From Liolophura sinensis (lineage: Eukaryota > Mollusca > Polyplacophora > Chitonida > Chitonidae): DNA of 64,000 nt. How positions within the stretch are numbered: the first letter of the stretch is position 1; each line of letters begins with the position of its first letter. Shown piece after piece: positions 23,257-51,980 of the stretch. Made by a program: the position numbers and the translations under genes. The stretch spans positions 57,572,984-57,636,983 of the forward strand of contig NC_088300.1 in NCBI RefSeq assembly GCF_032854445.1, read 5' to 3'. The notes beneath the pieces are model-generated. The model saw only the letters and a list, made by a program, of their open reading frames with translations. It was not told the origin of the DNA and did not search any database.

Positions 23257-25557
23257 CTATCTCCTGGCCAGGCCCACTACACAGTCCTTGTAGGTGCTGA
23301 ATGTTGGGTCAAACAGACACTTGTAAGTGAGTTCTGGTCCGAACACCTCGCCGCAGTACTCACACGTCTTTGAGAACTTCTCCATGGTCTGACCGGGCGG
23401 AGGAGACCTACACAATATGGACAAGACATCCAGGGGTTTCAAATTGTGTACCTGTTAAGTAAGCTTAAGAAAAAAACACTCGCATATTTCGACTACGTAT
23501 TATTAAAGTAGAACACACTCTTTGCTGTTTGTCTTAATATCACAGGTATATACAAGAAAGACGTATGCAGATGTTCGACATACATACATACGTATATGCA
23601 TTATTCAACTGTAAATTAAAACTTTAATAAACAAATAATGAAAAATAAATGTCTACTACAGGAACTTCAGTATTTTGCAACTCGTCATGTTATGATGACA
23701 TCCCTTCTTCGACGAAAAACGGAATCGTGTACAGGTCGGAAACATGCATTATTGCCTTCCTTGATGCATCAGTTAATATGTGTACTTACAACGTGTTGTG
23801 TTGACGACTTGGTTCAGTGTGTTGTCTGAGCTTTAACATCGTTTTCAATTCTGGTTCCATGCAATAGGTCGGTCCCAATAAACGATATTCGACCCGCGGA
23901 AAGAGAGCGAGAGCGATGGAATTTCGCTATGTTAGAGGTTGTAGCAAGGCTTACTAATTTACTCTGTATTTCTGTTTGAAACGAGTAAACTAACCACTTA
24001 TGAGAGGATATGAGAAGACAAATCATACGTTTTCCTTCCGTATATGTCTCCAACATACCCGACGCATTTCTATTCTGGAATGTGTTGACAGATAAGCGTG
24101 GAAACAAAAAATTCCAAAGGCCCCTGCCATCCCAGGATAAAAGGCCTTCGCGCTGTTAGGCTATCCATACTCGCAAAATCCCGTCGCTCTCGAGAGAAAA
24201 CAATTTCAACCAAGTTTGAGCATCCAGCTTCAAACGTCATGATTTGTAAAGAGGATTAGTTTTTAACTGTCCCAATACGGGTCAGTTATATATATATCCA
24301 CATTTGCTGCGTTTCAATCAAAGGAGGGGGGAGATCTTGACGATTGTATACTGACATAATGCAAATAACACTCAAGCTATTTACGAAAAAAATTCCCTTT
24401 ACAAATATTGTTGATATCCTCGTGTCACATCTCCTGCACTTACAGGGTACCCCCTCTCCAAATCAATAATAACATGACTTATTCAAAATACTGTTTCTGC
24501 AAATCCCCGAAGAATTATTTGTGTTATGGAATAGATGAAATATGTAAAGAGGATGTCAATAGTTTTCACTTGAATCGGAAAAGAAGGATATATGTCCCAA
24601 TCATGCACGCAGACATTCTTATTTACCATGAGTCAAAATAAATGAAAAAAATCGCGAATCCTGTTTTTCGAAGTCTGTTTAGCTCATACTCGCGCCTTAG
24701 TGCCATGACATAGAAGTAATCTAAAAAAAATGAAATAATCTTGAGTAAGGTGTAAAAGACCAATCAAATAATAAATAAAATAAATAAATACGATATATCG
24801 TCTCACCCAAAATGTGCAAAGTGGGTCTCTTATTAAAGGGCATATCAAACAGGAGAATGGAGCCTTTAAATTTCCAAGTCTGATTACCTCACACCTCACA
24901 AATCATTCATTTGTCTATAGACGCTATCTCCACTCACCTGATAGGTACAGTGCCTCACACTTCACAGATCTGTCCTTTGTCTACAGAGGCTGTCTCCACT
25001 CACCTGATATGTACAGTGCCTCACACCTCACAAATCTGTCCTTTGTCTACAGAGGCTGTCTCCACTAACTTAATATGTACAGTGCCTCACACCTCACAAA
25101 TCTGTCCTTTGTCTACAGAGGCTGTCTCCACTCACCAGATATGTACAGTACCTGACACCTCACAAATCTGTCCTTTGTCTACAGAGGCTGTCTCCACTCA
25201 CCAGATATGTACAGTGCCTCACACCTCACAAATCTGTCCTTTGTCTACAGAGGCTGCCTCCACTCACCTGATATGTACAGTACCTCACACCTCACAAATC
25301 TGTCCTTTGTCTATTGAGGCTGTCTCCACTCACCAGATATGTACAGTGCCTCACACCTCACAGATCTGTCCTTTGTCTTTAGAGGCTGTCTCCACTCACC
25401 CGATATGTACAGTACCTCACACCTCACAAATCTGTCCTGTGTCTATAGAGGCTATCTCCACTTACCTGATATGTCTTTCTAAAAGTTTGCCAGCTGAAGT
25501 CTGGAGTACAAATAGGGCACAGACCACACTGACGATTAACACTATGTGGGACTTCAT
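23257..25557 (-). CDS. Small secreted four-cysteine peptide precursor, family member A
   Basis: Two exons, 25557-25466 (92 nt) and 23407-23257 (151 nt), join in phase 2 at a split Arg codon to give 80 residues. Exon 1 codes for a signal peptide (start MKSHIVLIVS, hydrophobic to about residue 22) followed by GKLLERHIR. Exon 2 begins SPPPGQTMEKFSK and carries the pattern C-x2-C-x11-C-x11-C: TCEYCGEVFG, then TYKCLFDPTF and TYKDC, ending GLARR. Two clear paralogues in this window (38946-42714 and 50011-51290) share exon sizes, phase and cysteine spacing, which makes the hand-built model strong. The product looks like a secreted peptide hormone, growth factor-like or effector peptide; I do not recognise the family. 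An acceptor-like TTTGTTGTAG directly precedes the ATG, so a non-coding first exon is likely. The 5' splice donor sits at the edge of a 66-bp tandem array that copies it. Confidence 0.86.
24731..24790 (+). mobile_element. Meta-type SINE, 3' fragment
   Basis: Only the terminal core (AATCTTGAGTAAGGTGTAAA, CCAATCAAATAA) and the A-rich tail remain. It lies in the intron of peptide gene A. Confidence 0.65.
24887..25472. repeat. 66-bp minisatellite overlapping a splice donor
   Basis: About eight full units and two partial ones have a 66-bp step. On the minus strand each carries ACATATCNGGTGAGTGGAGA. The outermost partial unit contains the true donor of peptide gene A exon 1 (ATATCAG|GTAAGTGG at 25466). 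The 66-bp period is a multiple of three, so a 258-codon repetitive frame stays open on the plus strand. Confidence 0.92.
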
Positions 25558-25963
25558 CTACAACAAAGATGAGGCGATCATTAGAAGTGTGAGAAACCAG
25601 ATGACACAGATGGCCGACAAGGTGTGTATTGGCGGTAGGATTTTCCAGGTGTATGAACCGATGAAGTATGAATGCAAGATAATGTGAATGCCATATGTAG
25701 TTACGAATGTCAGCTGTATAAAATACAAAATATGTCTAAATGAACAAAATAACTTACAACACGGCTTTGATGAGGTGAATTAGTTGGTTGTTAGTGTGAT
25801 ATATTCACACATACAGCATAGGGATAGGCAACTGAATGAACAAGGTAGTACAGCACGACTTTGATGAGCTGGCTAAAGAGGTTTTACAACATACACGCTA
25901 AGAACAAGCGGGTGAATGAAAAATGCATTTTCGGTACGGCTATGATATATTTACATAGACAAT

Positions 25964-26100
25964 AATTTATTTATTTATTTATTTAATTGGTGTTTTACGC
26001 CGTACTCAAGAATATTTCACTTATATGACGGCGGCCAGCATTATGGTGGGTGGAAACCGGGTACAGCCCGGGGGAAACCCATGACCATCCGCAGGTTGCT
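25964..26100 (-). mobile_element. Meta-type SINE, 3' half
   Basis: This is the 3' half of the main SINE family on the minus strand, from the tail to the GGTTGCTGAT segment. There it is cut off and a 32-bp minisatellite begins directly. Confidence 0.8.
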
Positions 26101-26612
26101 GATTAGCTCAATCAGGTAAAAACAGGCGACATCATTAGCCCAATCAGGTAAGAACAGGCGACTTGTGAGCTGAATCAGGTAAGAACAGGCAACTTGTTAG
26201 CTGAATCAGGTAAGAACAGCCGACACCATTAGCTCAGTCAGGTAAGAACAGGCCGCTTGATGAGCTCAGTCAGTAAGATCAGACGGTTTGATGCGCTGAA
26301 TCAGATGAGAACAGGCGGTTTTGATCAGCTGAATCAGTAAGAACATACGGCTTGATGACCTTAATCAGGTAAGTACAGGCGGCTTGATGAGCTGAATCAG
26401 TAAGAACATACGGCTTGATGACCTTAATCAGGTAAGTACAGGCGGCTTGATGAGCTGAATCAGGTAAGAACATACGGCTTGATGAGCTGAATCAGGTAAG
26501 AACATACGGCTTGATGACCTTAATCAGGTAAGTACAGGCGGCTTGATGAGCTGAATCAGGTAAGAACAGGCGGGTTGATGAGCTGAACCTGGTAAAAACA
26601 GACGGTTTGGTA
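26095..26612. repeat. 32-bp minisatellite with a two-unit higher-order repeat
   Basis: About 16 units resemble GAGCTGAATCAGGTAAGAAC plus AGGCGGCTTGAT. A 63-64-bp double unit (ACATACGGCTTGATGACC variant alternating with ACAGGCGGCTTGATGAGC variant) is repeated between 26330 and 26560. The array abuts a truncated SINE at 26100. Confidence 0.88.
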
Positions 26613-27279
26613 AGTACACCCGATATATAAAACAACCCGTTGGAATCACCTCACTGACATATCCATTGGACATGAGACCACTGAGCGTTGACCCGGACAG
26701 CAGATCAATGAGATAGCCCTGTGTGGCTAAAGTATATAATTATGTCTCTACAACAAACGACAGGCGATGCAAATTATCTGGTAATGGGAGGATAATAACA
26801 GCCAAATAATAAAAGCATACAGACTGTCGCAAAAGAGTGGTTGGGACACATGAGACAGCTACCTGATACAGTAACAAGGCCGCAGAATTGACTGGAGATA
26901 GAGAACTTCGCATACCTACTGAGAGACGTGGAGAGCACAAAATGGGTTGCACAAACACAACAGACATGGACAAGCGGCCCGTTGAGAGACAGAAGAGAAC
27001 GTGGGTGGGAATAAAAGATTGTAGAAAAACGACTCAACGTGACAGGCATTTTGGGAGAGGGAGAGAGAGAGCGCATAAAAGTTTATGCGAGCATCTGACA
27101 GGTGGCTTAGGAAACCTCAAAGAACATAAGAGGCAGAGACATCTAGAAACAGAGACATCTAGAAACATCGTGAAAGACTTCGTGAGGAACTTACAAGGTG
27201 ATGACAGCCCGCTATAGGTTCATTTGTCAGTATTACAAAGGAAGCGGCTGCCGTAAAAGACATTTAAAGCGGCCGAAAA

Positions 27280-27680
27280 TAATGAGAACTGAGCTAAAAA
27301 TGATTGACGTCAAAAACAGCAAGATCATGATAGCCGAAAATAAGGACTGCAAAGAACGTGGTTGACGTCAATGGGAACTAGCAAGATCATGACAGCCAGT
27401 ATTGAATATTGCAGAGAACCCGAACTGAAGAGACTGAGACATCAAGGGGAACTAGCAAGATCGTGGCCGCCCATAATGAGAATTGCAGGAAACATTATTG
27501 GCGTCAATAGGAACTAGCAAGATCGCGAAAGCCCATAATCAAAAATGTAGAAAACGTGGCTGAGGTCAAGGAGAACTAGCAAGATAGTAACACTTTGTAA
27601 TGAGAACTACAAATAATCTGGCTGACGTCAAAGGGAACTCACAAGATCGTGATAGCCCGCAATGAGAACAGTGTGAATAA
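27280..27680. repeat. ~60-bp minisatellite carrying TGACGTCA sites
   Basis: GAACTAGCAAGATCNTGANAGCC recurs at about 27317, 27376, 27450, 27511, 27573 and 27635 (steps of 59-74 bp). Between copies lies TGACGTCA, perfect near 27305, 27363 and 27622 and decayed in the others (TTGGCGTCA, TGAGGTCA). Confidence 0.82.
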
Positions 27681-30209
27681 CGTCTAACGTTCCTTTACTA
27701 ATGTTTTTGCCGTACCAGGAATATGGCTACCCGTACAGAGAACAGCTAAGACCATGCCTGAGGTCCAAGCCAGCTAGCAAGACCTTCAGAAGTCGTTGAA
27801 AAAAGTGATGAGATAGCATATATCGGCTGCTAAAAGAGTAAATGGCGATGGAAAGCTGTAAGAAAAATTTCAGATGCGTTGTGAAAAAAGTCACAAGTAG
27901 TGGACAGCATAAAGTGGTTTGGAAAAAACAAAGGTTGGCTGTTTTCGCGGTGCGACACGCTTAGATTTTTGTGTAAGTGCACACTGCCTAATAATGATAA
28001 GAAAAGTATGAAAAATTAGCATGTAAAATGACTCAAGTGTACAGTAAATAGTTTTTGTATATTTCCCCACTTCCTGTATGGCTCTAGATTTATCACAAGG
28101 TCTAAATAATGCAGCTTGATTTGGTAAACGTCTCTGTGCGTGTACTCCAAGCATACGCCATACACATGAAGTAAATTGCTTGGTCAATATATGCACACCA
28201 ATAGTTATCGTCGTGATTTACACGGACAGGAAATATTAAAGCCTTACAAATACTACAATTAACACAATATATACATCCCGTGCCGTCGAGCTTTCCATTA
28301 AATCCTTAATCAAATACATTATCATTTATGAAGCAGTATTTTTCCATCTCTTTATGATGGTATCCAACTAACCTTTGCATAGCTTGCAATATTGTACTAT
28401 ACAAACTAAAATCCTGCTATAGATGTATTCGGTAAATACTGAATAGCCAGGGTGAATAAATGCACAATAACTATAAATATCATAACTCTAAAAGGTATGT
28501 CAACGTCCTCGTAAGAGCTCTGAGAAAACAAAAACTTGAAGGTTACACGTTTTGAAGACTTAAATATAGCTTTTAAAAAGCCGAGATGAAACTATCATTC
28601 CACCATGTCTTTCTCTGCTCATTCTGTTTTTTTATGTCTTTTATGTTAACTGAAGAGTTGAAATATGTATGTTATTATAACTGTGGCAGTGTTCTATGTC
28701 AGGTAATTCCAATCCTGAAAAACAGGAGTCAAAGTTCGGTTGACAAATTTGCTTGCTTGGTTATGATGGATTAAATGTAATATGAACAATTTTTGAGCAT
28801 ACAGATGATGTTTGTATTCACTCATCCAACTAGTGTTGACTGATGTGATACAATACGGACTTCGTCATTGATTACGCGATCATTTGAATCTTAATACGCC
28901 CAAAACAACACGATTACAAACAGGATTAATTGTGAGTAGCCTATCTGTCATAAGCCTGTGTAGTTTTTGCATGGTGGTTGGCATTGGAATGAAATATCCA
29001 CTTACGAGCCATGGGAAGTCTCGCTCTCAAAATCCTATATATCTCTTTACCTCCGGGGTTATATCCCTCAGACTTTGGTACCCGACCCACCCTTTTGATG
29101 GATCCCGTTTGTGATATCCAATTACAGGTAACCGAATTACACCTGTCGGTATCGGGCTTATAAACCCCTGGGAAGGCAGATGGTACACAAGGAAGATTTC
29201 TGCCCGCATCAGCTAACCCTGCTAACCTACTTATTACATATTTAAGAATATTTGGGATGGTTGCTTAATGTCATTATACCTCAGAGTAAAACATGCATGC
29301 TTACTGGCCCTTTGACAGAAACTCTGCGCTCTCAGACTGTATTCATTATTCATGATCAAACAAGTAAGTACGTTCGTAGTCCATTAAACCTGTGACAATA
29401 GATCAGTGATGCCCCGACCTTCCCTGAGCCCATCGAATCTTTGGAATTACTTGGTCAAACTATAAGACACCACTGTGATTTTAGGTGGAAATGCCAGCAA
29501 CATGCGACTATAGCACGCTAGTCTAACCGGAAATGAACACGAATCGGATGAGCAAGATGTCGAGAAAACTCATTTATCAGCTACAAATGAAATGAAAACG
29601 AAACACATTCAATAGACATTGATGTTAACTCGTGTTCTTGAGTAGACTCCTTCGAGAAGGCAGTGTAGACAATTGCCGTGTAGAGATTCTCCACGTGATC
29701 TGGGTGATGGTTAACCTATAGCTAAGTTAAAAGGCTGTTATTTGTACGTAGCTGGTTTGGTTGACATCCTGAATAAATTGACCGCCTAGGATAGGGCTGA
29801 CAGCGAGGCTTATTACGTGACGTATGACTCAAAGTACCCAGACGAGAATCCGCAATAATGGTCTAAAGCGACAAATATACTTTGGAGGTGACAGAATTTA
29901 GAAAGTATAGGATGTATGCAGAGTTAAATAAAAAGCGATAAGAAAGCAAAAAGGAAATCGCGTTGAGCCATAAACCACGGTAAACCATGCTGGATGACTC
30001 GACAGTAGTCAGTGTTTCAGGAAGTCAACCACATACATGAACAATATGACTGATAACTCCAATTTTCTTAAAAGAAGACAACAAATACTAGGGTTTAGGA
30101 AGTTGTATTTTAAGAGAGAATAAAATAGACCTTCACGGGTATAGGCACTTTTTTCTGACGTGCTTGGCAACTATGTAAATCGAGCTTTAACCAGGAGTTT
30201 TTACGAGGT

Positions 30210-30420
30210 CATGAGCGGCACAATTGCAGAGCAACCGGAAACACGACGAGCCGTCACTCGTAGGGCCTACATCACGCAAATATGGTTTAAACTGGCTTCG
30301 GGTGACGAAAGCGAAAGCAGCCGCGCGATCGGATTATACAAATGTGATTGGTCAAAATTGATAACATGGCGGCGTTTTTGATTGTCTCAATGTGCGCGAA
30401 TTTACTTACTTTGAACTGCG
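30210..30420 (+). promoter_or_regulatory. Candidate CpG-rich promoter
   Basis: This is an unusually CpG-rich block in an AT-rich desert. It has, in order, an ETS-like ACCGGAAAC, an inverted CCAAT box GATTGGTCA and a YY1-like AACATGGCGGCG. This combination is common at TATA-less animal promoters. The ATG in the YY1 motif opens a frame of 30-odd codons starting MAAFLIVSMCANLL, but no clear donor or family match follows. Confidence 0.4.
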
Positions 30421-33400
30421 ATATCTCACATATGCAACATCACAATAATAAAAAGTCTTTTTTACAGTTTTAATGCTTTTTAAACTTCATGTGGTACACT
30501 TCACCGATGCATATATACATTTGGTCTGGCGTTGTCTTTTCTTTTAAAACACCAACTCAGTGCCATAAGTACATTTTGCACATGGTTGTAATCAAGTGCA
30601 AAACTTCAAGAAAATAAATAAACACTAAATACGCTTCTTTACTGTTAACAAAATGTCATAAATACCCCTTTCACAACACTGACTGATGCATATGTGGTAC
30701 TATGAATGTTACACGTTGTAACCCACGCTTATGAACAAATGGGAAAAACAAACATCCTAATCCAAAATATTCAGTCAGCGCTGCAATTCCAGCAATGTTG
30801 CAAAACTTAAGAAGAAAATTCTCCCCTTTACATAGTGTTTGAGTACAAGACCACAGACGTCATTAGCGCATGAAATGTAGTTTGATTTCATACTCTGTTG
30901 ACCGCACTGACCCGTTCACTTAAACCCCCATAACATACGTTGTGTCGTGATTCTAACTCATCCGCATTATAATCTGTAATGTACAATAATGACAACGGTA
31001 TGTACCGTGTATCAAGCTTCCATCCGAAACTGATTGGGTTCCATGTAAGATTTGTGTTCCGACAGTGTCGGTCAGAGGTGTTTGGGGATTCTAGCGCCGT
31101 AACAAAACACCTAGCTGAACTCCACTGGCTACTCCGCAGTCAAGGTCAGCTGATTTCGTTCAGCCTGAAAATAAGCAGCTATATGATTTTCTCTAAACTC
31201 GGAAAATCCGCTTCATATCCATTGAGGTGAACGAATTAAATTGGGAGCGACTTGGCGGTACGAGGGGAAAGGTGACTGGAGTGATCGTTGTAAAGCCCTT
31301 AAGACGACAGGTAGATAGGATCAAGATCTCACAGGTATGGTCATCGCTCAAATATTAATCAGTGGCTATCGGGTCCATATATACCCGTCACCCTGTAATC
31401 ATCGGCTGGTCAGATCCCGCAGGGAAAAAATCGATCTAAAACTACGTGAAGAAAGTCATAAATATAGGATTGCAGTAAGATTGAAGTTTATCGACTACGT
31501 TCTTATCGGCCGTAGTCATCAATTTCTGACAATAAAATATCAGCCAAAGCAAATGTAAAGCAATATGGAATGAAACACATTCTATTCAACTCCTTATAGT
31601 ATAAAGAAACTCTTGGTATATCAGAAATCTCGAAAATTTGGCATTGCACGTGTCATTAGGCAGTTTTGAAGTCCATGATCAACGCTGCCATTCACCTGTA
31701 GTTTTGCCTGTACCAATTTGCAATGGCAGCTGCAGTTATTACCTTGGTAATTATGAATGAATGATTATGGCTTAATGCCATGCACATTCGCAATATCAAA
31801 GCTATATCGTGGAGAGAGCAATTTAGACCCAAATAACAGTATGGTTTTCGATGTGAACATGCCAACACTCGAACCCAAAATAAAAAAGTGACGGATATTT
31901 TCAAAACAAATATCGTAGAAGAAATATGTACAACTAATATCTAGAGAAGAATAGATCTAGTGATAGAGGCGGGAGGCCTTAATATATTGAATGATGCAAA
32001 TAGGTGTGCTTTGTAAAATCTTGGTCGAATATCGACGTCCATACAGTCCATATGTTTCATACCGTATAATGCAAATATACACTGCCGTCTATGTTCCAAT
32101 CAGATATAAATCTGTGAGTTAACTGAGAATGTTCAAAGATAGCTCATTACATATTCCTAATCTCGTTTACATGTTATAAGTGTTATAAGTGTTAAAAGAG
32201 CTTTTTTTACATCAAAGCTTAAAATTTAAAAAAAAACACAGTAATGCAGTACAAGAAATCATAGTACATCAAAGTGTCGTAGCTTTAGGTAATGATGAAC
32301 TGCGTTAATGGCAATATGTATACAGAAAACAAAGTTGGAAAACTATACACCCACCACAGTTCTATCTATATGTAACGTAACAGAGCATATCTACAGACGT
32401 TAATCTGTGGAACTGTGTAAAATAGTTGAACTCATAACATACGTTTCGGAATTGTTTGCAGTGAAAGTATAACTGAAGCCACAATGACTTACTGTCGTTT
32501 GCTATTCACCATGATTCCAATATACATGGTATTGCTCCATAAAAATATTGCCATTACTGTCATCATTATCATTAATGGTTCGGACAGCAAGAACCAAGAG
32601 ACCAATGCCACTGGACAAAGAATATGTAATTGCTTTGTCAATATTGCTAACAGGTAGAGAGGGGCTTACCTTGATTGCGGGAGCTTGTATCACCGAGGTC
32701 CGAGTCTTGCTAGGTGATCCTGCTTACTGGGCTTATATTGAGATCGACGACGCTGACAGAAATAAATCAATATCAAGGCATTATACACCTGGATGTTACA
32801 GAATGGCACTTTACAAAATCTATCAAACAGTTTGTCAGGAAGCGTCAAAGTTAAGGAATAAATCGAGGAAAAAGTTTGAGAAGCAAAACAGGATACGAAA
32901 TAACACACTTCCATGCTCTTCATCTTAATATTATACAGAAAGTATGCTGGCCGGTGACAAATCATCGGGTTGAATCATAAAGACGTCTGGAAACATCGTA
33001 GGGCCTTACCGTGTAAAGTGGTGGTGACAGCGATTAGGACGGTAGTAGGCTTGGAACCAGGTATAAACTGTCAGTTATATAGGGGCTTTGCCTTGCCCTC
33101 CATTCCCCAGGGATTGGGGGCAGAATGATTAATTACTGCGTTATCGGCCTCCATTCCGGTACGACTCGAAGACGAGCAGCTTCCGCCAGTAATCGCATTG
33201 CTTTTTACGTGTAATACAGACGATATATGTTTGCGCGCACACGGAGAAATGGTCCACGCTAGCTACTCATTGTGGAGTCAACAGACAACGTCAGTCCATC
33301 ACTTCTCCTCTTTCCTCACCTAAGTACTGCCATCTATACTAGTCTCCGTAACATCAACGTTCCCGCTTCGTTCACATTTCTGTAGATCCGTTTCTTCTCA

Positions 33401-34869
33401 GGTTTCGGCCAAACTTCCAGACTTCGCAGTCCCTTAGATAACAGCTTTTATTGACCTTCGGCTGAAAGATCCCTCGAGTCCGAAGCACCATCAGTGGAAT
33501 TTAGGCAAAATTTGAAACGACAAGATGATTTTAAATACGGCTCACTGTTTTTTTCTTAAACTGGATGCACTGTTGAATAATTAACAATGTAGAGCATCTT
33601 ACTGCCAGTGAACATTGCAATCCTCTCTCGAATTTCCACTCTTACAATTAGACGTGCAAAATGATACTATAATAAGCTTGAAAAACCAATTTGTCATCTC
33701 CGGCATTTCGCGCATGCTAAACGACCTTCCCAGTTATCCACGGGGAATTCGCTCTTGAAGAACAGTATATTACAGGGCTATCTTTGCATACAGGATTCCA
33801 TTAAAACTTTTACATTATTGCTGACCACTTATTACCACTAAGACCCCGAAAACAGTGAAGGCGGGGAAATCTTGAAAAGTCCCTATGAGTCTAACCACTC
33901 AATTTAGGCAAAATTTAACCACTCAATTTAGGCAAAATTTGAAACGGCAAACGGACACACGACCGCAGATTGTCAGCAAATGGAAAAATCTGCTAATTCC
34001 CTGTTCAAAGTCGGATTCAAACCCGCACTTCAAGTGTCCCAACAATTGAAAGGTAAATGCCTTTAATCATTAGAACACGTGGTCCGATGTTACGAGCTGG
34101 TACAGGTAGGGGCGATAAATATCTCTGCATTAGAAGTCATTAGTGAGTAGGTGACAAATGAACAGAAATGACGATAAATGACGACACAATTCCCTAACTA
34201 CGCGAACAAGTAGAACAAACTGTGGGCTGAGTTTCAGGATGAATTGATATATGATCAAGATGACGCACATGAGGAAGTCCGCATCTGTCTGTGGAAGCAG
34301 TGACAACACAGAATATGCCCAAAATATGACAATATTTAGTCTTTGAGCCCACATTGCAACCCAATATGGGCTTTATGTACCAAGTAGTGGATGTAGTAAA
34401 AATGTTTCTTATAGTGTCGCGCCAAACAGGAATCGCCTAAACATGTCCATTTGTGAGCCTGATATCTTTTTGACGTCTTAAACATTCTAACTTTTCACTT
34501 AAGGTCAAAAATCGCTTTCTTGATTCAACCCCTGGTGTCAAAGCCAATGTCTTGACGGTGACGTGACGGGCACCTTTGCCTCACGACGAGACCCTGCCAT
34601 TAAAATAACATTCTAGGCCATCCATAGCACAATATCACTACCGAAGCATGTGCTTTGTGTATTGCCATCATCGACGCAATGGAGCCTTAAACCGTACATC
34701 GACTGCTCGCGAGGATCAAGCAATTCAAGCAATAAAATCTTCTGTCGATTGTTAAGTTGTAATTCAATACCTGAATTATCGTCACATTTCTCCTGTAGAA
34801 ATCACACTGTGAGGTGGTGGGGTGGGGGTGGGCTGATGGGGGAGGGGCATATGTCGAGATAGGCAAAAA

Positions 34870-34890
34870 TTACATCCTAAGAGGATGTAA
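34870..34890. repeat. Small perfect hairpin
   Basis: TTACATCCT and AGGATGTAA form a 9-bp stem around a 3-nt loop. No adjoining gene is recognised, so a terminator or RNA role is unsupported. Confidence 0.6.
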
Positions 34891-36930: not shown

Positions 36931-36966
36931 ACATAATTTTGTGTACCAGCAGTACACAAATTATGT
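36931..36966. repeat. Inverted repeat with 5-nt loop
   Basis: ACATAATTTTGTGTAC and GTACACAAATTATGT pair over about 15 bp with one bulged T around CAGCA. No gene is nearby. Confidence 0.75.
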
Positions 36967-38945: not shown

Positions 38946-41900
38946 CTACCTGCCAACCCCCAGCAAACACTTCTTGTACGTCTGATAGGTGGGATCATAC
39001 AGGCACTTATAGGTGTAGTCAAAACCAAACACATCGCCACAGTATTCGCAGGTCTTCGCAAACTTCTCCAGACTCTCGCCAGGTGGAAGTTCCGGAGGCG
39101 GGATTCTGGAAGAGAAGCATCTCTGATGGAGTGGTTGACTGACTGATTAGCATATACCCATGTAGAGACGGTGATGTTCTCGACGTAGATACTCTCATAG
39201 ATAATTTGTCAACATTTTCAATGCGTTAAAGTGATACAACATGTAAGTGCCAGCATTTTAGAATGTTACTCTGCGTAATGATTCTTTGTAGGTTGTAACA
39301 AGATTTTTAATATTTATAATGCACTTAAAAGTGTCAAGATTGTCTTAGATCACAACCTTTTTAAGCATTATGTGAAGTGTTAAATTTGAGATGCTTTTGA
39401 AAGTGTTAATCTAACATTAGATATACTTTCCCTCCTCCCACCACTGATAAAACGTTGAATTTAACATTTATTAAGGATGCATATAACGACGGAAGGTCTG
39501 CCAGCAAACTGCGGATGGTTGTGGATTTCTCCCGGGCTCTGCCCGGTTTCCACCAACCATAATGCTGGCCACCGTCGTATAAGTAAAATATTGTTGAGTA
39601 TTGCTTAAAACACCAATCAAATAAATAAACAAATAAATAAATAAAAAAGTTCACTGAGATTTTGCCAATTGTTGGTGGTTTATGCCGGGCTCCCCAGTAT
39701 CTTTTACATATAACATGACTACCAATGAATACAAGAAAAATTCTTGCGTGACAACAATGAAAAAAGACTTTAAATAAATAAATATGCCTATTATAACATA
39801 AATAGGCTACTTTCTTGGACTGACTGCGTATCAAGATATATTATTTTAAACAGCCGTTTTAAAATCATATACAGGTCTACACTGCTACGTATAAATGTAT
39901 CTATGTATTGTGGTTTGTGGGATATCTTGCCTTTAACACTGACTGTTCTTCGAGTACCAATTAAACTTCGTTATTCAGCAGCCTTTAGAAAAGAACTGAC
40001 CGGAAAAACATATCCAATTTTACCTTTTAACTCATGGCCTGTATAGAGGAGCTCAAAAATGAGAAAACCGCATGAAACCAAACTCATGGGCCTAATCCCA
40101 GCTCGTCGATCCAGAAAAATAGGTATAACAGTTAGTGTAAATATGCATGGAAATAAATGAAAGTATTTCAAGTATCGACTTCGCTTGTCAGTTAAAGATG
40201 TTTCGGCTATGTAAGTACAAACGTATATAATGTTTTATTAAAGGTTACATGAAACGATACTAAAGCGAAAGGTATGATTTTAAGAAAAGATATAAAAAAA
40301 TATGCAAAAAAACAATTTTCACTTTGTGGAAAGTTTCAGATTTCTTAATACCGTTTCTATTTTATGCATATTTTCCGTCAGTGGTCGGAAATATTCCGTT
40401 TTGACGTCATCGATGAACATACTGGGAACATTTGAGGCCTCCCCCGAACAAAGTTGCTTTGACAGCTATCACCGTTGATGTCAACACAGCAGGCTACTTA
40501 ATTTCCTGATTGGCAGGAGTGGCCTTAAGAAAATCGTAGTTTAAATTCCCTTTTACGCCACAAGAAGAAAGCTGAGACAGCAGTTTATATGTTATGCCAC
40601 CTCATACACTCCGTAGTAAAGAATGACAACCAAGCGTTTCATGTATCCAATAAGTTTGATAAGAGTACAGTTTTGAATTCTAACGCCAACTGCGTTGATG
40701 AAAAGTCTTTACTTGTACTGCTAGTCCTACATCTCAGTACAACTAAAACAATGTTCCCATAAACAGTGCTTAACCAATGTGTCCAAGATATTTTCATTAA
40801 TTTAATACCCATTTATTAATGTAGTCAAAATATTTAAGAAAAGGGCAAAGCATAGCCTAAGAAAAGGACAAAACATAGCCTAAGAAAATAACAATTATCA
40901 TAAAAACTAAAGAGAAAAAGTAAGAAAGGTTGTAAAAATGATATTGTAGAAATGTATACACAGCCACGATAACTTAATATGTGCATCGGAAAAATCGCCA
41001 AATTCAATGAATCTACACGTGTAGCAGTCTACAATGGAACTTTGAGTTTGTTATTAAACTATTCATATTCCTAAAAAGTTTTCAACAAAATAAATATTGT
41101 GTTCATGTTTCAAGCAATACATGGCACAGACGGTCGGTATCAATCAGCCGCTGTGCTTTTATAAAGATGGTGGTATAGGGGCTGATGTTCTTGATAATGG
41201 TATCAGATTTGTCGAGAGATCTGCTCTCAACCGACGAGGTTAGATCGAGCCCACATGTAGTATGTGACAGGCCTGTGGATTTAGGTTTGCAGAATGTACT
41301 TCAGAATGCCGGGTGTTAGTCACACGCTGAAATTTGTCCAGTTATTACATCGTCTGGACGATTCTACGGTCTGAAATGCCGAGTCAAGCAAAGCTGGTGC
41401 CGGTGAAACTTTTACAGGAAATTCGCGCAATCGAGGAGTTCCAGAAAAGTATGTCAGATGTGTTTTGCACACGTTCCCACTAAAAGATCCTATTCTTCCT
41501 GATTGTTTCACAAATCATATGCACGCACAGAATCCGGGAGCGTCAGTCAGCTTGATTGTTACATTATCAGAGTTCAGTAAGAACCTTTCCACAATAATTC
41601 CCTCCCTAAAAGCGAAGGAGCACGTGAAGACATATAGAACAAAGCTGATCACGACCTATGGACCATTCCATTTGTGATATCTCCGTTGATCCAGAAGTGC
41701 CAACGGCCCATCAAACAGTTATACCAGAAGCGAGGAAGCAGGGGTGACTCAGCGAGTAATGATGACAAATGTATCTAGTCGAATAATGTGGATACCCGAA
41801 GACAGTTTTCGCTTTACAGAATTACTCAGATTCAGAGAGAACCTGGACTTAATGTTTTTATAAGACGGGAGCTTTAAGGAATACCAATGATACCAGAGTT

Positions 41901-42714
41901 AAAAAATTGAATTGACCCTATTTCCTTATCTGACAGGGTACTTACGCAAATTTTCTTTGTACGAATGCGGTGAAATTACTGGGTGGGTAAAACAGAGATC
42001 TAGAGGTACACCATGTGAGCCCAAAGTGTATGTCATGTTGGTGAAAGGCAAATTATTTCCAAATGACTTCATGTAAGACGACTTGAATGACGATTTAATA
42101 AGCACAACAAGGACAATCGGCAATAGTCCTTGTCCTAGGTTGGTATTAAACCAACATCCTTCCTGTCCACATATAACGCCATATTCAAAATCAAAATACT
42201 CGTACATCTTGTACAATTTGCTGGATTTGACGTAAAAGTGTTGCTTATGTGACGGCTACATGGCAAGCAAGAAAAAAAGCTTGCAAAAGACGTATTCATG
42301 CCCTGCATGTTGGCTATAATTTAGAAAAGCAATCCGGTTTATGTTGCTCCTTATTATAAAAACCTTCTTTTGGACCTGGAGAACGTCTATAAAAAGGCAT
42401 CAGTGAGAATTTGACCGGACGCATTGGGATAACATCAGTTATATCAAGATAAAATCGCGCCTTGAGAAGACCCCAATTAAAAAAAGAAGTTGGTCCGTTA
42501 AGAGAGCTTCGGAAAGATTCTGAGCTAGCAGAGAGTTTTTGCTTTACGCAGGCATGCTGAAGTTTCGCAGATAATCCAGGTATCGTTTCTGCAACAAAAC
42601 TATCTCATTCTCTTTGACCTACCTTGGAGTTGTGCGGATGAGCTTGTATCCCAGTGTGGTGTGAAGCGCACAGACGATGACCACCAGACTAGCCGCAACG
42701 CCGTACATTTTCAT
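38946..42714 (-). CDS. Small secreted four-cysteine peptide precursor, family member B
   Basis: Two exons, 42714-42623 (92 nt) and 39105-38946 (160 nt), join in phase 2 to give 83 residues. Exon 1 (start MKMYGVAASLVV) is a signal peptide followed by YKLIRTTPR. Exon 2 reads IPPPELPPGESLEKFAK, then TCEYCGDVFG, TYKCLYDPTY and TYKKC, ending GVGR. The spacing C-x2-C-x11-C-x11-C is identical to members A and C. It is the most divergent copy: it has a PPELPP insertion before the cysteines, Tyr for Phe in two places, and a 3.5-kb intron that contains a 5'-truncated SINE at 39492-39648. The first ATG is preferred over a second one two codons later because it makes exon 1 exactly 92 nt, as in the paralogues. 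GCGTTTTAG precedes the ATG and may be an acceptor of a 5'-UTR intron. The C-terminal Gly-Arg could allow amidation; this is inference. Confidence 0.86.
39492..39648 (+). mobile_element. Meta-type SINE, 5'-truncated, in intron of peptide gene B
   Basis: It begins at GAAGGTCTGCCAGCAAACTG and runs through the body to TATTGTTGAGTATTGCTTAA and a repeated AAAT tail. It lies antisense in the intron of the gene at 38946-42714. Confidence 0.8.
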
Positions 42715-45700
42715 CTAAAACGCAAATCATCCATGGAATAGTAACCTTTGCATTTTGAAAGTCATAGAAGACCTAGATAAGGATGGCATTTAGATATCTC
42801 CTTGCAGAAGGACTAAGACATATTCTTTAGGATTCTGTTTCACAAAACGGTTGTAAGCTAAGTTGTTTGTAACTTGTGTAAGACATATGCAACCATGGTA
42901 TTTACAGTTGAGTTAGCCTGCAATTGCTTTGAAGAACAGCCCACTTTGTTGCCTCTAAGTTCTAACTTTTTATTTCTCATATCATTCTATTTGATACAGG
43001 AACGGAAATAAAATCCACATAGACTGAACTCTTTGCCTTAAAAATGATTAAAAAAACAATAGAAAGAACTTTTTAAAACCCCTTACTTTCAAGGAATAAA
43101 TCTCAAGACTGCTGAAGACACATTGGAAAGCTTACCGTTCGTCAGGTGTAGGATCCGAATGCACGCGTTAGAGTCGGCAGGTAAGAGCATACGGAAGAAA
43201 TGGTCAAGACTCGACGTTATATACCTTCCTCTGACCCATCAGCGTGGACATCACATCATCTCTTTAATGTACGCCTTGTATTTCTCCGTAACAGTACCCA
43301 AGCCTAAGGCATTTGCTTCATATTTTCCAATTTCCTCCACTAAGCCATTAGCTCATCCTATCTCTTTAGAAGTTTGCCCGTCCCTTCCTAGGTACAATAA
43401 CAACCCATGTTCCGGGACGTCCTGGATTACACATCACAACTGTCATAAACTAGAAACAGCTAGCTTCTCTCGCAAGCACCTTAACAGAAAAATGGCGAAA
43501 ATGATATTAAAGCTTCCACCGTATCGCTTTGTATGGGCATTCATGACATGAAGTATCGTTTAAAGTCGTGGTTTATTGTGTAAACGACCACGACAGTTTG
43601 TCCTCAAAACGATGTGATCGTGCTTGTCAGATTTCAGAGATCGTGGTCACCGATAAAGACAGACTGGAAATTAACCAAATGCCACGCTTTATGGTGCAGT
43701 TACTTCTGGTTACTTTGCAATGTAACCAAAGACAAATCAACATCCAGTAAAATTCTCTCACAAGTTCATAAACTATGTTGCAAACTATGGCGCTTTTGCG
43801 TGCATGCACCGAAACTGGTTTTATTCAGAACTGCATGATCTCCAGTGACGCAAACATTAGGCCCATCATGATTGGAATAACAATACTTAACAGTTGGTTC
43901 TGCAGGAAAGATGCGCCTTGGTGCAAAACAGCCATTTAAGTGAAAGTCTGACTGACAGACTTTTGCATTGGTCTTTCCTTGCTCAGAATTGACTCTTGAC
44001 AGGCTTGTTGAAAATTAGTGTCGTATGGTCACAGTTTGGTTGTGGTTGACCTGGGAGAACAGTTCAAAACTTAGAAAGTCTGATCCGGCTGTTTGCGGTC
44101 AAGACCAGCGTCTGCAAATCGGCTGCAAATTTTGAAATTTTTCACTTATATTGATGTCAGACCCAGACAATTTCAAACACAGACATGGGCATACCAGCCG
44201 TCAACCACAATGGGCGACCCTGGTCAATAATCGCAAAACCAATTTCCACAACAACGTTCAACCCAAACCACCCAAAAATAAGAAATTTCTGTAAAAAAAT
44301 AAGTCAGGACAAAGCCGTGCAAAGAGGATCAGTCAACAGGTGTCCATGATATCTAACAGACGCAACAAATGTTCCAGGAGTATAAATACATTCAGTAACA
44401 TAATCCGGTACATGTACCATACATGTCTAAGGTGTTCTTATTCAAAATATGTATCATATTTCAACGTCGGTGGTTTTATTCAACACTAAGGATACTAAGC
44501 TCCAAAACCTTCTAAAGCATACTCTCCGCCCACATTATACTCATAACAGAATAATATTTTTTGTAAAACATAAGAAACTTGGAATAAAGGCATTTGAGGG
44601 AATATCCTTGACAAGCTATATATTTTGTAGCAATAACTTGTGGCGTTGATAGAAATCGTCTCACAACATACAGGATCTAAAATATTCTACGCAAAGCGAA
44701 ATGTGTAGGCCTACTTGTCATAAGCGCATTCGGCATATTTTTTTATCTGTATAAGATTAGCAATGTGTAAAAATTTAAACTATCCCTTTATAAATACGAA
44801 GTGACGGAAAACGCTTGCCCTCTTTGTAAAAGTATAAGACTAAGTAGGCTGTACCATCTGCAATGTACTTTAAAACCCGTGAAACTAGATACATTTCTTT
44901 AACAGCCTTTGCTATATATGGATAGGAAGATCTGGTACGTGGTAAATGAGAAGGGTTCAGCTTCTTTAATAACTTTTACGTTTAGTCGTATCCATAAGAG
45001 AGTAGGTTCATGTCTGCCGGATGGGGGGCGATTTTTATACGGGTCGGAATACCTATACACCGTTGGCGTTTGGTTTCCTCAAATTTCACATAAACGTTAT
45101 TGAGAAGAAATTCAAGCAAGTCAATGCACAACACACATCCCTTGTATATGTAACAGAAATGAAGGAGGTTTGCGGGGTCTGCAGGGGAAGGGCTGGTTTA
45201 ACTAAACCAATGTAACATCTCACCGGGATGATATTGTAATCAGGGGTCATCTAGCGCAATCTGTAATTTATCTTACCAACACATGGAATGGGAAAAGTCG
45301 CATGAAAGTAGAAAAAAATAACAAATGTTACACTTTATACACGTCACAAATTTGGATTTTGTAAAATTCTCTAGAAGTAGCTTGAATACTTATGACAATG
45401 CTTCACAAAAAAACGAAAACAGATGGCTGCACATCATCTGTTCTCATCTTACAAAACAAGTTTAGGACTTTCTTGGGATATGACAAGTGCATTAAAGTGA
45501 TATGGTCGCTCAAAATTTGGATTTTTATAAACGCGCGTCTTAACGAAGTTTTAAAATTCGTCCATAAACTAAATCATCACGCTGAAATAAAAAATATTCG
45601 TTGAGTATGTAGCCCGGAAGAAGTCCTGCCGTTATTCGAATTCAACACAAAGAGGGCGGGCCAGTTCGTTTCATTAATATTCAACCGGAAGGGCCCAAAG

Positions 45701-47817
45701 CATATGCGCAGCGTTCGGAAAGTTCCCTATGATACCGACGTTCGATCAGTCGATGTACACATAGGTGCATGCAGAGTACAGCAGGTTAAACAGTATTGAG
45801 AAAATGTTATGAATAATCTTCTCATTAAACTATGAGTCAGAAACGTGTGCCTGTTCGAAGTTTAACACCTCCTGTCTACAACAACAACAACATTTGTACC
45901 CACCTAAAGACAAAATCAGTGTATTTCACCGTTCATCCTGACCATCAGTTACAACTCTAGACTTGTTTGTCATCTCGTCGAGATCTTTTTTATTCGTCTT
46001 TTTGGCCGATCCTGTCGCGAGCGAGCCGTAAGGCCTTCTTTCACGTGTGTAATCAACTATGTTGACATATGAAGTTTACCGAGCACTAAGCGCATTCTCC
46101 ATTTCCACTGAATTGACAACGCGCCTCATTTAAATATTCCGGCAGAATTTTCAGTTTTCATTTTTTTTTTTTTGTTATTTTTAAACATTCACTTAACGTA
46201 CAGTGCTGGGGTGGGATTAACGAAAAACTTTTCCTTCTTGAGAAAAATGCACGATACTCATGTCATTCTGTAAAAATAGCTAATATTTGGGCGATGATAA
46301 TCTTTAATCAAGTAGGATTATCGAGTAAAACATCCAGCTGTATTATAATTCCAGTATATAAATTGGCTGTCCAAGCTTGTACTCGACACAATAATTACTT
46401 CCGTGATCTTTGAAATAGCTTAAAACTAGGTGAAATGACATGTCGAACAAATTCACACGTACCCATGCAATGCTTCATATTTTGTTTGCAAATTGATTAG
46501 TATCTGTAATCAAAATTTCTGATGTAACCCCATTTTCTACATGTACATAGAAATATGCGCAAACAAAAAAATCGCATGGTCTTAACCTGATTTTGTCTTT
46601 AGTATGTTAAACAGAAGCAATTTTCAGCACCTGGCCTTTATTTTAGTACATGTATAAAATTAGTACTGTCTTCCAAGTGGGTAATTGACCGGTAATTCCC
46701 GGTATAACAGCTACCTGGGTACTCACTAACTGACATGTCCGTGCACTAACAGGAAATTAACACAAATACTCTACGGAGAAATGTACTAATTAAGAAAGCA
46801 TAGCTCTTGCACAGGAGTTTTTAATTAACATGATGGCTATATCTGAGGGAATCACCAGCATTACGTGTATATATAAAGAAAGCTTGTTTTATGTCGCTTA
46901 TTTCAGCTGGAATTAGCCTGATACATGGGTATTGTGTAGTACTGTAATTGCTATGCTGGATTTAACACCGCCTAGTTCTGCTGCTTGGAACCTCGGTGCA
47001 AGGCTGGATATATACCCCTTCATCTGTCAGTCCTTTTTCAGGGCTGATATGACATGCAAGTGTTTTTTTTTTTTGTACCCAGGGCCAAACCGTCATTACT
47101 GACCACAAGATGTGATGACAGTCTTGCGGACAAGTCAGTCATCAACTATTCATTGTGACTATATAAATACGACTGTTATGACCTTTAGGCTGGAGACCGT
47201 CTATCACTCATTTCGAATATCGACTTTTCCTTGAGTAGAGATCAGTGTCTTAATTTACTAGATTTCTCGAGAATGTGCTCTTAAACTGTATTCGAGACAT
47301 TTGTCCGACGCAGCCTTTGAAAAATGACAAATCAGAAGTGCCAACCAACAGATTGTATATCCGTGTGAAGACCCGCGTGTGGGCGAAGACCAATACGGTT
47401 TGAGAGTACCGCTATGTTTAACAGGATAGCGAGAAGTACAGTGGCTGTATTAACTACACGGTATGCACCTCAGTTGTAATCCGCAACGTAATCTGTTTAC
47501 CAGAGAGATTACGGAGCTTTACAGGGGAATGATTAGGTCTTGTTCTAGCTCAGTTTTAACTTATTAGGGAGTGCAATCAGATTATTAGCTACCGTGTCGA
47601 TGAGACTGAATTAAAGGTAATCGGGTTTATACACAAAAGATGGATATGCCGTCCATAAATTCTATTTTTGTCTGCCGGACGTCTGTTAATTTTCTTTTGC
47701 CTTCAGCCGCCGGATTAATATAATCAAACTATAGTTCATCTGTTCATACTTAATGCGAGTCAATCTGATAAACTCCGGATGAGACACCAAAATGACGGGT
47801 GTTTAACAACAGACAAA
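42715..47817. other. Gene-poor interval between peptide genes B and C
   Basis: No exon with a family match is seen. The only notable block is the GC-box/ETS/NRF1 cluster at 45645-45730. Confidence 0.4.
45645..45730. promoter_or_regulatory. Candidate promoter or enhancer cluster
   Basis: A GC box GAGGGCGGGCC, an ETS-like ACCGGAAGGG and an NRF1-like ATGCGCAGCG lie within about 80 bp in AT-rich sequence. It lies 4.3 kb upstream of peptide gene C on its strand. No exon is recognised next to it. Confidence 0.3.
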
Positions 47818-48015
47818 TATTTATTTATTTATTTGGCTGGAGTTTTTCGCCGTACTTAAGAATACATCACCTATGCCACGGCGGCCAGCATTACGGTGTG
47901 AGGAAACTTTACAGAGCTGGCGGGAAAGTCACGCTCATCCGCAGGTTGCTGCTAGACTTTCCCACGACCGCAGAGGCAATCAGCATGAGCTGACTTGAAC
48001 TCGCAGCAACGACTG
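47818..48015 (-). mobile_element. Meta-type SINE, diverged
   Basis: Tail (plus-strand TTATTTATTTATTTGGCTGG), core (GCCGTACTTAAGAATACATC) and body are recognisable on the minus strand; the tRNA-like head is gone. Confidence 0.78.
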
Positions 48016-48499
48016 ACAAATAGTGTCCTAAACCTGCCATGTCCACGTTAATGCGCCAAGGTTTCTAAACTCTGTTCGCTTAGCCAGGTTGGTAACTGTC
48101 AAACTTGGCGCTCAGCAGAAGGGCACATTCCAAGTACCGGCTCGGCAGGTGTCAGAATATTGTGAGTGGGTGCGTGGAGTGTCATGTCAGCATGGTGGCG
48201 TGTCTAGTGTTATGCCCTGTATGTCACTAGTTCCAGTCTTTCACTCCCTCTCCCGAATAAAAGAAGTAATATTATTTGTTATTTTTTTTTCTTTTCAATG
48301 AATGAGGAACCGTTCCCGCTGACAGTAATTCCGGCCTAAGTTGATGTAGGCATATAGCTTATTGCACACTCCTGTTTTTGCGACATTTTAGCTAGTAGGG
48401 TATTACTTATTCATTGCGAGAGAAGAATGGTCGATCCAGCATGGACCATCACCGTCGACTGTTCATTTGTAGCACTGTGCATACAAGTAATCATCCAAT

Positions 48500-48752
48500 T
48501 TTATTTATATCTTTTATTAAATGTTTACATCGTACTCAAGAATATTTCACTTATACGACGGCGGCAAGCTTTATGGCGGGAGGAAACAGCCCGGCAGAAA
48601 CCCACGGCACTCCGCAGTTTTCTGGAAGGCCTCCCTACGTATGGAGGGGAACCCGACATGAACTGGACTTGAACTCACAGCGGCCGCATTGGTGAGAGGC
48701 TCCTGGGTCATTGCGGCGCACTGGCGTGCTAACCCCCTCGACCATACCGGAT
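48500..48752 (-). mobile_element. Meta-type SINE, nearly full-length but diverged
   Basis: On the minus strand there is a degenerate head (reverse of GCGTGCTAACCCCCTCGACC), the body with AACTGGACTTGAACTCACAG on the plus strand, and the core GTACTCAAGAATATTTCACT. The tail is not a clean (AAAT)n run. Confidence 0.8.
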
Positions 48753-50010
48753 CCTAGTCATCCAATAATTACTAATTTAATACAATGCATGTTAAGTGCG
48801 GCGGAGGAAAACTCCTTATTCGTCATATCCTCACAGACGGCAATGGTATACTTCGCCAATGCTTCCATATGTAAAGAACACAACGAAACATTCATGTATA
48901 AGGGTGTATCTGATTACTGGCAGTGTCTTGTTTTGAGGTCCTTATGTCTTGTTTTGAGATAATGAACAGTATATGACCTATTTTTACCTTTGACGCGGTA
49001 GTGTTAATTACTTCTTTACACACATTTCATTGATCTGTTAATTAACAGGTATTCCCGAGTATGACTATTAGCGGGGGGCTATTAGGAACATCTAATAAAC
49101 TTTATGTAAGAAGACCTAGGAGCCTTAAAAGTATTTTCGATCGATTATTGACAAAAAAGCCGCCAAACGGGAATCTGGAATCGTCCTGCACGAAGTTGGG
49201 CATGTGATTAAGACATGTGTGTCAAATGCGCACCATTCTTTATTGTGGTGTGGAATGAATGAAGGATTATGGCGGAAATATGGCAATAAGAAATGAATGG
49301 TTTTGACTGAAAACTGGGTAGGTTCTATGATATATTACTGATTTATTACTCCAGTGTTTAGTCACACGACATCATGGCACAAACAAATAGCCTCATGATG
49401 TGACAATGTTAGAGCAATCAAACATTTCCACTCCCACTGAAGTTCACCGTATATATAGCAGCTCACTAGTCACATTTCAGTCGTATAACGGAAATACGAG
49501 TGACGTCATAGGCGTTTACAAAGATCGAGCTTTCTCATCCATACATAATAATATCTCAAACCTTCAGTATAACTCAAACTTCGACTTAGAAGGCGTGCAT
49601 AACATTTTGCAGATCACAGTTCAGGTAAAGGAAGTTGATCTCCGCTGCCCTTGGGACGGACATTGAAAATCGGTCTCGTAACGCGGAAGTCCATCAATCA
49701 GCGCCCCTATTGCCATCGAAGTTGTCCTCGTTATGGATTAGGCATCGGCACGCCAGTTTTATGATAATTATATGGGAAAAATATAAAATGGGAAAGAGAG
49801 ATAGATGACTGAAGCGTTTATTCGTCGATAACTTTTCAGTCACAACTCTTGACTGTCGCATCTCACATTATTGGCTCATATAGTTATTGGTCAAGGGAAG
49901 AGTACACAAGCAGTGCATCCTCCACATAAGTGTAGTGTCAATCATATCACGTGTGTTGCAGCAGTTATCATCCCCAGCGGGACGACGTGGGTCATCGTGT
50001 ACAGTCTAAC

Positions 50011-51290
50011 ATGGTGTCTAAAGCTCGCCTCCTGACCACTGCCCTGTGCATCGTGCTCTTATCCCAGGTCGACGCCTCAAAGTTCCTCCACAGGCATATC
50101 AGGTAGGTCTCCGTGAAATTCCCCCACCGGAAGCACAATAAGTTTAGTTTTAACAAAGTGAAATATTTTTTTTTGTTTAAAGTCAATGGTGTTAATAAGA
50201 CGGGTACGGATTAGTATTATCAGATTATGTCCGGTGAGTGAGTATCATCAAACCGAATACTGAAACCCTCAAAGAATAATGGGAATATTCCACAGAAGAA
50301 CAAGATCGACAAAAACGCAGGGAGCTTGCTGGTTCCGTACAATAGAACACGTGATTACTGAAACAGACGAGTCGGAAACATCCTGGTGAATCCCCCACAC
50401 AAATGAATATACATGCATCAGCCAACAAAATAGACGTGTTGTCATTTAGGTGTTTTTTTTAAGCGATAAAAAACGACATGGTACGCTATTTGGAAATATT
50501 TCATACGTTCTTTTCCGCCTTAACTATTGTGTTTGACCATTTGTTGGTCAACGCACATTTCAATTTATTATTTAACCCGAGGTTCACTAAGATGCCGCCA
50601 TTCTTCTCCAGATGACTACTGGCATGTTACGAAATTGATCAATTTGGCACGTTTCCAATGTAAGGACTTACTTATTATCACTGATGCTTTAAGTTTTATT
50701 TTTCACTGTTAATAGCTGAGATCTTTTCAAAATCAGAACCTATAAACCTGGTTTGTACAACAAGCAGGTCTAACTTATTTTAAAATTTTAAAAGGCGTTC
50801 TAAGGCTTACTGTTACACGTCTTACCTTGTTGAAGCGAAAAAGGAAAATGGGATTTTTTTCTCATCATTCTTTGATTTCGATATAAACCTGTGGGTGGTC
50901 GTGGGTTTTCCCCGGGCTTTGACCAGTTTCCTCCCACCATAATACTGGCCGCCGTCCTATCCTTGAAATAATCTTGAGTACAGCATAAAACACCAATGAT
51001 ATAAATAAATAAATTTTTAATCGGCATTCCCTACTCTTTAAGTGATATTCAGGTCGATAAAATTTTACGGACAACGAACGGGCAGTAGCGTAACGGGAAG
51101 CTGGTTTTCTCAGATGTATAGAACTTTTTTTCTGTCCCTCAGGTCCCCTCCCCCTGGTCGCAGTATGGAGAGCTTCGCTCAAACCTGTGAGTACTGTGGA
51201 GAAGTGTTTGGGCCGTCCTTCACCTACCAGTGTCTCTTTGATCCCACCTTTCAAACGTACAAGGATTGCTGCGATGGACTAGCCAGATGA
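50011..51290 (+). CDS. Small secreted four-cysteine peptide precursor, family member C
   Basis: Two exons, 50011-50102 (92 nt) and 51143-51290 (148 nt), join in phase 2 to give 79 residues. Exon 1 (start MVSKARLLTTAL) is a signal peptide ending near VDAS, followed by KFLHRHIR. The same RHIR sequence precedes the intron in member A. Exon 2 reads SPPPGRSMESFAQ, TCEYCGEVFG, TYQCLFDPTF and TYKDCCDGLAR. It has the common C-x2-C-x11-C-x11-C pattern plus one extra Cys directly after the fourth, an odd number that could permit disulfide-linked dimers (inference). This is the only one of the three on the plus strand. The acceptor TTTTTTTCTGTCCCTCAG is strong and the donor is AG|GTAGGT. A truncated SINE (50889-51014) lies in the intron. 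The upstream flank has two inverted CCAAT motifs near 49870-49890 and a CACGTG near 49949. Function unknown. Confidence 0.88.
50889..51014 (+). mobile_element. Meta-type SINE, 5'-truncated, in intron of peptide gene C
   Basis: It starts in the segment GTGGGTGGTCGTGGGTTTTC and ends with ATAATCTTGAGTACAGCATA and (AAAT)n. It sits 130 bp upstream of the second exon. Confidence 0.8.
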
Positions 51291-51701: not shown

Positions 51702-51951
51702 GGGCCTCCGTGGCTCAGTCGGCTAGCGCGCTAGCGCAGCGTAATGACCCAGAAGCCTCTCACCAATGCGGTCGCTGTGAGTTCAAGACCAGCTCATGCT
51801 GCCTTCCTCTCCGGCCGTAAGTGGGAAGGTTTTCCAGCTACCTGCGGATGGTCGTTGGTTTCCCCCGGGCTCTGCCCGGTTTCCACCCACCATAATGCTG
51901 GCCGCCGTCGTATAAGTGAAATATTCTTGAGTACGGCGTAAAACACCAATC

Positions 51952-51980
<29 letters not shown>
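51702..51980 (+). mobile_element. Meta-type SINE, full-length and recent, with target duplication
   Basis: A complete copy beginning GGGGCCTCCGTGGCTCAGTC, with A and B boxes, the body, the core TATTCTTGAGTACGGCGTAA and a long pure A tail. Perfect 13-bp duplications TCTTTCCTCATAC flank it at 51689-51701 and 51981-51993, so it inserted recently. Confidence 0.93.

Follow-up and report, generated by a model that had tools for sequence, protein, structure and literature searches.

Among the described peptides close in layout to the genes treated here are the eclosion hormones (EHs), which passages in two papers report from oyster and other molluscs, with the suggestion of a common origin with ITP/CHH (PMC8398477, PMC6660194). 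A 2019 survey lists chitons with those classes of mollusc whose peptides had not been thoroughly surveyed until it appeared (PMC6425005). Here we describe three two-exon genes, hereafter labelled A, B and C, from a 64,000-nucleotide stretch of the genome of the chiton Liolophura sinensis (NC_088300.1, C6:57572984-57636983; the window), where they lie in one 28-kb cluster. Judged from their sequences, they form a genuine, apparently undescribed family of small secreted disulfide peptides. Their predicted exons and introns are as follows (positions in the window):

25557-25466, minus strand: gene A exon 1; 22-residue signal peptide, GKLLERHI and the AG of a split Arg codon; from the assembled sequence, hydropathy and the exon-1 scan
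23408..25465, minus strand: gene A intron; 2058 bp, GT-AG, phase 2; contains most of a 66-bp tandem array
23407-23257, minus strand: gene A exon 2; 151 nt including stop; SPPPG..C-x2-C-x11-C-x11-C..GLARR and stop; from the pattern scan, tblastn and genome search
42714-42623, minus strand: gene B exon 1; signal peptide, YKLIRTTP and the AG of a split Arg codon; from hydropathy and the exon-1 scan
39106..42622, minus strand: gene B intron; 3517 bp, GT-AG, phase 2
39105-38946, minus strand: gene B exon 2; 160 nt including stop; IPPPELPPG..four-cysteine core..GVGR and stop
50011-50102, plus strand: gene C exon 1; signal peptide, SKFLHRHI and the AG of a split Arg codon; from hydropathy and the exon-1 scan
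50103..51142, plus strand: gene C intron; 1040 bp, GT-AG, phase 2
51143-51290, plus strand: gene C exon 2; 148 nt including stop; SPPPG..four-cysteine core with one extra Cys..GLAR and stop

The predicted products of A, B and C are 80, 83 and 79 residues long and have no internal stops. As an earlier note on this DNA had claimed, the first exon measures 92 nt in all three predicted genes, a predicted phase-2 GT-AG intron splits an Arg codon in each, and exon 2 carries the pattern C-x2-C-x11-C-x11-C. The alignment of the three products has 32 invariant columns, 28 of them past the splice junction, and its invariant elements are PPPG, E-x-F, TCEYCG-x-VFG, TY-x-CL-x-DPT, TYK-x-C and G-x-x-R. Some details of the earlier description need adjusting: the proline-rich PPPG start is present throughout and is interrupted in gene B by a 4-residue insertion; the four-cysteine pattern holds in every copy, with a fifth cysteine in the mature region of gene C, next to the fourth (..KDCCDGLAR); and the C-terminal G-[LV]-[AG]-R occurs in all, with gene A ending in GLARR, one Arg longer than the others, so that the motif is not its last residues.

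Exact C-x2-C-x11-C-x11-C spacing occurs in 3 of the 2903 six-frame segments of at least 15 residues in the window, and these are genes A, B and C only. Spacing alone is common, with 0.33 occurrences expected by chance in 264 kb and hundreds in the genome; it is the shared exon-2 sequence (tblastn E values of 1e-25 for A-C, 2.7e-20 for A-B and 3.6e-19 for B-C), and not the cysteine spacing by itself, that points to more-than-chance kinship. Exon 1 is weaker in sequence, A and C matching at E 0.001-0.002 and exon 1 of gene B being recovered only with a profile built from all three genes, and was therefore tested by form. The scan covered both strands (2623 ATGs) and asked for an ATG start, phase 2, a length of 60-150 nt, a hydrophobic core (hydropathy cut-off 2.7) and a donor from a list of eight pentamers. 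A qualifying exon appeared only at A, B and C, each upstream of its own exon 2 on the same strand, with the donor list and hydropathy cut-off fixed after the genes had been seen and an earlier, narrower donor filter catching gene A alone; the scan gave four rows for the three genes because in gene B another ATG follows 6 nt after the first.

When the exon-2 peptide of each gene was searched against the genome (609,464,459 bases), only A, B and C came up below E 1; these searches score only the candidates from a loose first look (four each), so very divergent members could escape. Closer reading of the two remaining matches, L036 at E 1.97 and L040 at E 7.2, led to their rejection as copies, and no further copy was found within 100 kb on either side of the window (264 kb in all, with 200 N). 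A TC[ED]YCG-type pattern gave 12 matches in the genome and 10 in the reversed control; three of the 12 are the family, and the other nine, when read, had no such core. The family, called dispersed in the earlier note, is therefore better described as one cluster holding the sole copies found in the genome.

Over the 46 residues of the core, A and B share 30, A and C 35, and B and C 30 (65-76%); over the 22 sites of the signal peptide the corresponding numbers are 6, 6 and 2. Nucleotide differences in the 46 core codons fall at positions 1/2/3 as 10/7/28 for A-B, 7/7/30 for A-C and 9/10/24 for B-C, that is, third-position shares of 28/45, 30/44 and 24/43 (p 7e-5, 2e-6 and 0.002). Nonsynonymous divergence (dN) in the core is 0.22, 0.18 and 0.26 in the same order, and synonymous divergence (dS) reaches 1.57 for B-C and is beyond saturation for the other two pairs. 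By this pattern the core is under protein constraint. Exon 1 shows little third-position bias (A-C differences 19/11/20 by codon position). Beyond exon 2, all that the gene regions have in common is scattered repeats and one 22-bp match (E 0.01). With so little shared there and the core held, the copies are old yet still constrained: old clustered paralogues, on this comparison, in which the mature part has been kept.

Several repeats adjoin the genes. A repeat of about 110-160 bp, its copies 73-92% identical, is scattered around and within genes A-C (25965-26101, 39502-39638, 50886-51014, 51835-51970, 47818-47951 and 48500-48624). The 66-bp array of gene A (24887-25474, 8.9 copies) begins within exon 1, in its final 9 bases, and repeats the splice donor of that exon. 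Another four donor-like sites lie near 25402, 25270, 25006 and 24940, and use of any of these would carry translation into the in-frame stop that directly follows the first donor. A 32-bp tandem array of about 16 copies lies at 26100-26609, and its unit also contains the donor-like string CAGGTAAG.

No relative of A, B or C was found in Pfam at E up to 10, a search in which HMMER filters discard most matches above 0.1; the one match, for gene A at E 0.67, is a chance zinc-finger match. NCBIfam gave none either, which is weak evidence because its models describe bacterial and archaeal proteins, and the 8 matches among PDB sequences (E 0.35-1.2) are all zinc fingers. In a set of 5.8 billion proteins, none of 17 word-sharing candidates is related; that search takes at most 100 words from the three sequences and proteins of 0.55-1.75 times their length, so longer fused gene models would escape. 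The set includes animals (with Manduca EH as query, 68 of 68 candidates were retrieved, and every named one comes from a moth, butterfly or aphid) and the H6PD protein of L. sinensis itself (an H6PD query gave 52 matches at E up to 1e-100 among 7997 scored), which makes it probable that an annotated protein of similar size would have come up. Among viral contigs, 63 stretches matched a pattern, none of them a relative; five core strings were found in none of 5.39 million papers, where sequences confined to figures or supplements would escape; and an uninformative search of plasmid DNA with a repeat gave no match. The earlier note did not recognise the family, and it is still unrecognised after Pfam, NCBIfam, PDB, the 5.8 billion proteins, the viral contigs and the chiton's own genome. 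It is apparently lineage-restricted, with no relative detected in the databases searched.

The N-terminal hydrophobic peaks of A, B and C have mean hydropathies of 3.35, 2.93 and 2.78, and acceptable cleavage residues (TSA, TLG and VDA) all fall at residue 22, with an invariant Lys24 beyond. By hydropathy and cleavage residues all three precursors have a signal peptide, which would be removed after residue 22 in each. Before the core, A and C have R-x-x-R at 28-31 (R-H-I-R) and B a single Arg (T-T-P-R). A cut after Arg31, exactly at the splice junction, would release a two-disulfide peptide of about 48-52 residues, whose C-terminal Arg would be trimmed by a carboxypeptidase; the gene B product (..GVGR) could then be amidated. 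Such a peptide would most likely be an extracellular receptor ligand, whether peptide hormone, neuropeptide or growth-factor-like, and the three copies may split the role by tissue, stage or receptor; the tissues that PMC11068029 names, in the part concerned, for published RNA-seq of the chiton are digestive gland, foot, gill, gonad and heart.

Our preferred reading is that A, B and C are old clustered paralogues encoding secreted-peptide precursors that are processed at Arg31 and are most likely receptor ligands, a function that we infer; we put its probability at about one half. Receptor ligands are favoured over venom or antimicrobial peptides because of the conserved core, the variable leader, the lack of strong positive charge and the low copy number. 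Of the roles proposed in the earlier note, a hormone or cytokine-like ligand therefore fits best and a venom or defence peptide poorly. Cut after Arg31, the peptides of A, B and C would carry net charges of -0.9, -1.6 and -3.9 at pH 7.4 (isoelectric points 6.1, 5.1 and 4.3); with only the signal peptide removed, these become +1.5, +1.4 and -0.8 (8.5, 8.4 and 6.7). Several points weigh against this reading. No dibasic site precedes the core in any of the three, and T-T-P-R in gene B is a poor convertase site. Since A and B are weakly basic without the Arg31 cut, the charge argument depends on that cut. Constraint was judged from paralogues, three sequences in one genome. A conserved disulfide core would suit other secreted roles as well, such as inhibitor, carrier or matrix protein of shell, tooth or egg.

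That A, B and C are not genes at all, and are chance open frames or repeat relics, would agree with the failure of any annotated protein of matching size to turn up in the protein set; we consider it extremely improbable in view of an identical two-exon layout found three times, third-position bias, saturated dS, stop-free frames and genome-wide matches below E 1 that number three only. A structural or matrix protein (of shell plate, girdle, radular tooth or egg coat), or another secreted non-signalling protein, is unlikely, even though the products are secreted, disulfide-bonded and without a relative found outside this genome: they are very short and non-repetitive, have no low-complexity or acidic runs, and keep one compact core strictly conserved across old paralogues. 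Small size, disulfides, clustering and the absence of any relative found would also suit a venom, antimicrobial or other defence peptide, as would the weakly basic charge of A and B when only the signal peptide is removed. Venom-type families combine a conserved signal peptide with a hypervariable mature part. The chiton genes have the reverse, with 2-6 of 22 sites shared in the signal peptide and 30-35 of 46 in the core; their peptides would be acidic to neutral if cut at Arg31, and none is strongly positive under either cut, as a cationic antimicrobial peptide would be. With three copies only found in the genome, we regard a defence role as very unlikely.

A further alternative is a divergent EH/CHH-ITP-type fold that lost its C1-C5 disulfide as a pair and kept C2-C4 and C3-C6. 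Insect EHs, fetched and aligned (n = 16; those named are from Lepidoptera or aphids, the rest from contigs), read C-x3-C-x2-C-x12-C-x3-C-x10-C, in which C1 and C5 pair in one disulfide; the receptor of EH is a membrane guanylyl cyclase. Genes A-C read F-x3-C-x2-C-x11-C-x3-P-x7-C, with F and P in the C1 and C5 places; when cysteines 2, 3, 4 and 6 of EH are matched to theirs, the two absent ones are therefore the paired C1 and C5. A profile comparison over 21 columns also puts their first two cysteines in EH register (P 0.021), and the mollusc EHs and suggested common origin cited at the outset speak for such kinship, as do the five cysteines that a passage of PMC6660194 gives for cnidarian EHs. 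The same passage has every EH orthologue except the cnidarian ones keeping six cysteines, however, and part of PMC5627052 describes the cysteines of ITP and echinoderm EH as not in line with each other. Exon 2 alone gives P 0.13, the hhalign score of 16.5 was reached by 33 of 200 column shuffles with cysteines fixed and 31 of 200 free ones, and the Pfam families Eclosion and Crust_neurohorm were unmatched at E up to 10, under the filter limit given above; as a positive control, Manduca EH matched PF04736 at 3.5e-35, and CHH matched PF01147 at 1.8e-20. EH membership was rejected on cysteine number (four of six positions), the PF04736 result and profile similarity relative to shuffles, and the divergent-fold explanation seems to us quite unlikely. 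Very doubtful, too, is the more specific idea of a chiton-lineage branch of the EH/CHH-ITP helical hormones, a two-bridge version of an old hormone fold that shed one entire disulfide (C1-C5) and kept the receptor logic in a non-moulting animal.

The chiton genome was also searched for these two families. PF04736 gave 9 matches at E up to 10 (13 candidates scored), none above cut-off and the best at 0.096; one of the 14 control genomes, that of a bacterium, matched as well. Several of the matched stretches show EH-like cysteines; one open stretch, L045 (C1:84544113-84544190; L045 1501-1578), has five cysteines in exact EH spacing at E 4.8 to PF04736, a framework that may be chance, since about 28-39 of these would arise by chance in so large a genome. 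At L045 and four other loci examined, no downstream frame with a last [LIVMF]P[DE]C turned up, and splice sites there were unconvincing. PF01147 gave 17 matches in the genome, the best at 0.196; 3 of 14 control genomes match too, none above cut-off. At C11:16432755-16438771, frames of 245-400 residues contain seven weak PF01147-like matches with nearly equal scores, one of which reaches 25.8 bits only when summed with its neighbours in frame; this locus looks like a repeated gene.

Elsewhere in the window, the gene for the GDH/6PGL endoplasmic bifunctional protein (H6PD) occupies 12691-15813, its frame at 14200-15813 being 100% identical to the L. sinensis protein. On the minus strand, 827-1612 is a fibrinogen C-terminal domain frame and 57109-57417 an NTR/C345C domain frame. 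A 338-residue open frame at 53612-54628, about two thirds of it a 41-bp tandem array (15.7 copies), is probably not a gene.

The family would add to the known signalling molecules of chitons a peptide family with no detected relative. Short genes, kilobase introns and the lack of a matching annotated protein suggest that automatic annotation may miss such genes, and three paralogues with a fixed core could be put to direct use in peptidomics and in tests on receptors.

Among known systems, C2H2 zinc fingers (PF00096; BCL11A, ZFAT and SALL4 in the PDB) share the TCEYCG-VF stretch with A-C by chance, over 9-20 residues and at E 0.35 or worse; A-C have no histidine after C-x2-C and are predicted to be secreted, and the zinc-finger reading was rejected. 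PXRX, conchiferan proneuropeptides, resemble A-C in having four cysteines, two expected disulfides and a restriction to molluscs, as described in part of PMC6425005; A, B and C likewise have four (C one more), a comparison by count and not by spacing. The P[FM]R[WY] motif given there for PXRX is absent from A, B and C, and chitons are not conchiferans. A literature search directed at PXRX and four-cysteine families yielded two papers, and PXRX is named in neither. CHH/MIH/ITP peptides (PF01147) share C-x2-C and a third cysteine about 12 residues on, but have six cysteines and, in the relevant passage of PMC7560641, about 72 or more residues; with four cysteines instead of six and no PF01147 match at E up to 10, A-C were not placed among them. 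A-C differ from EH (PF04736) in having two cysteines fewer, a C4-C6 stretch of 11 and not 14, and a PPPG start. Both are small secreted single peptides with near-identical spacing of four of the six EH cysteines, and in both L/F-G follows the C-x2-C pair. We do not claim EH membership for the chiton family, and treat this likeness in cysteine layout as a lead.

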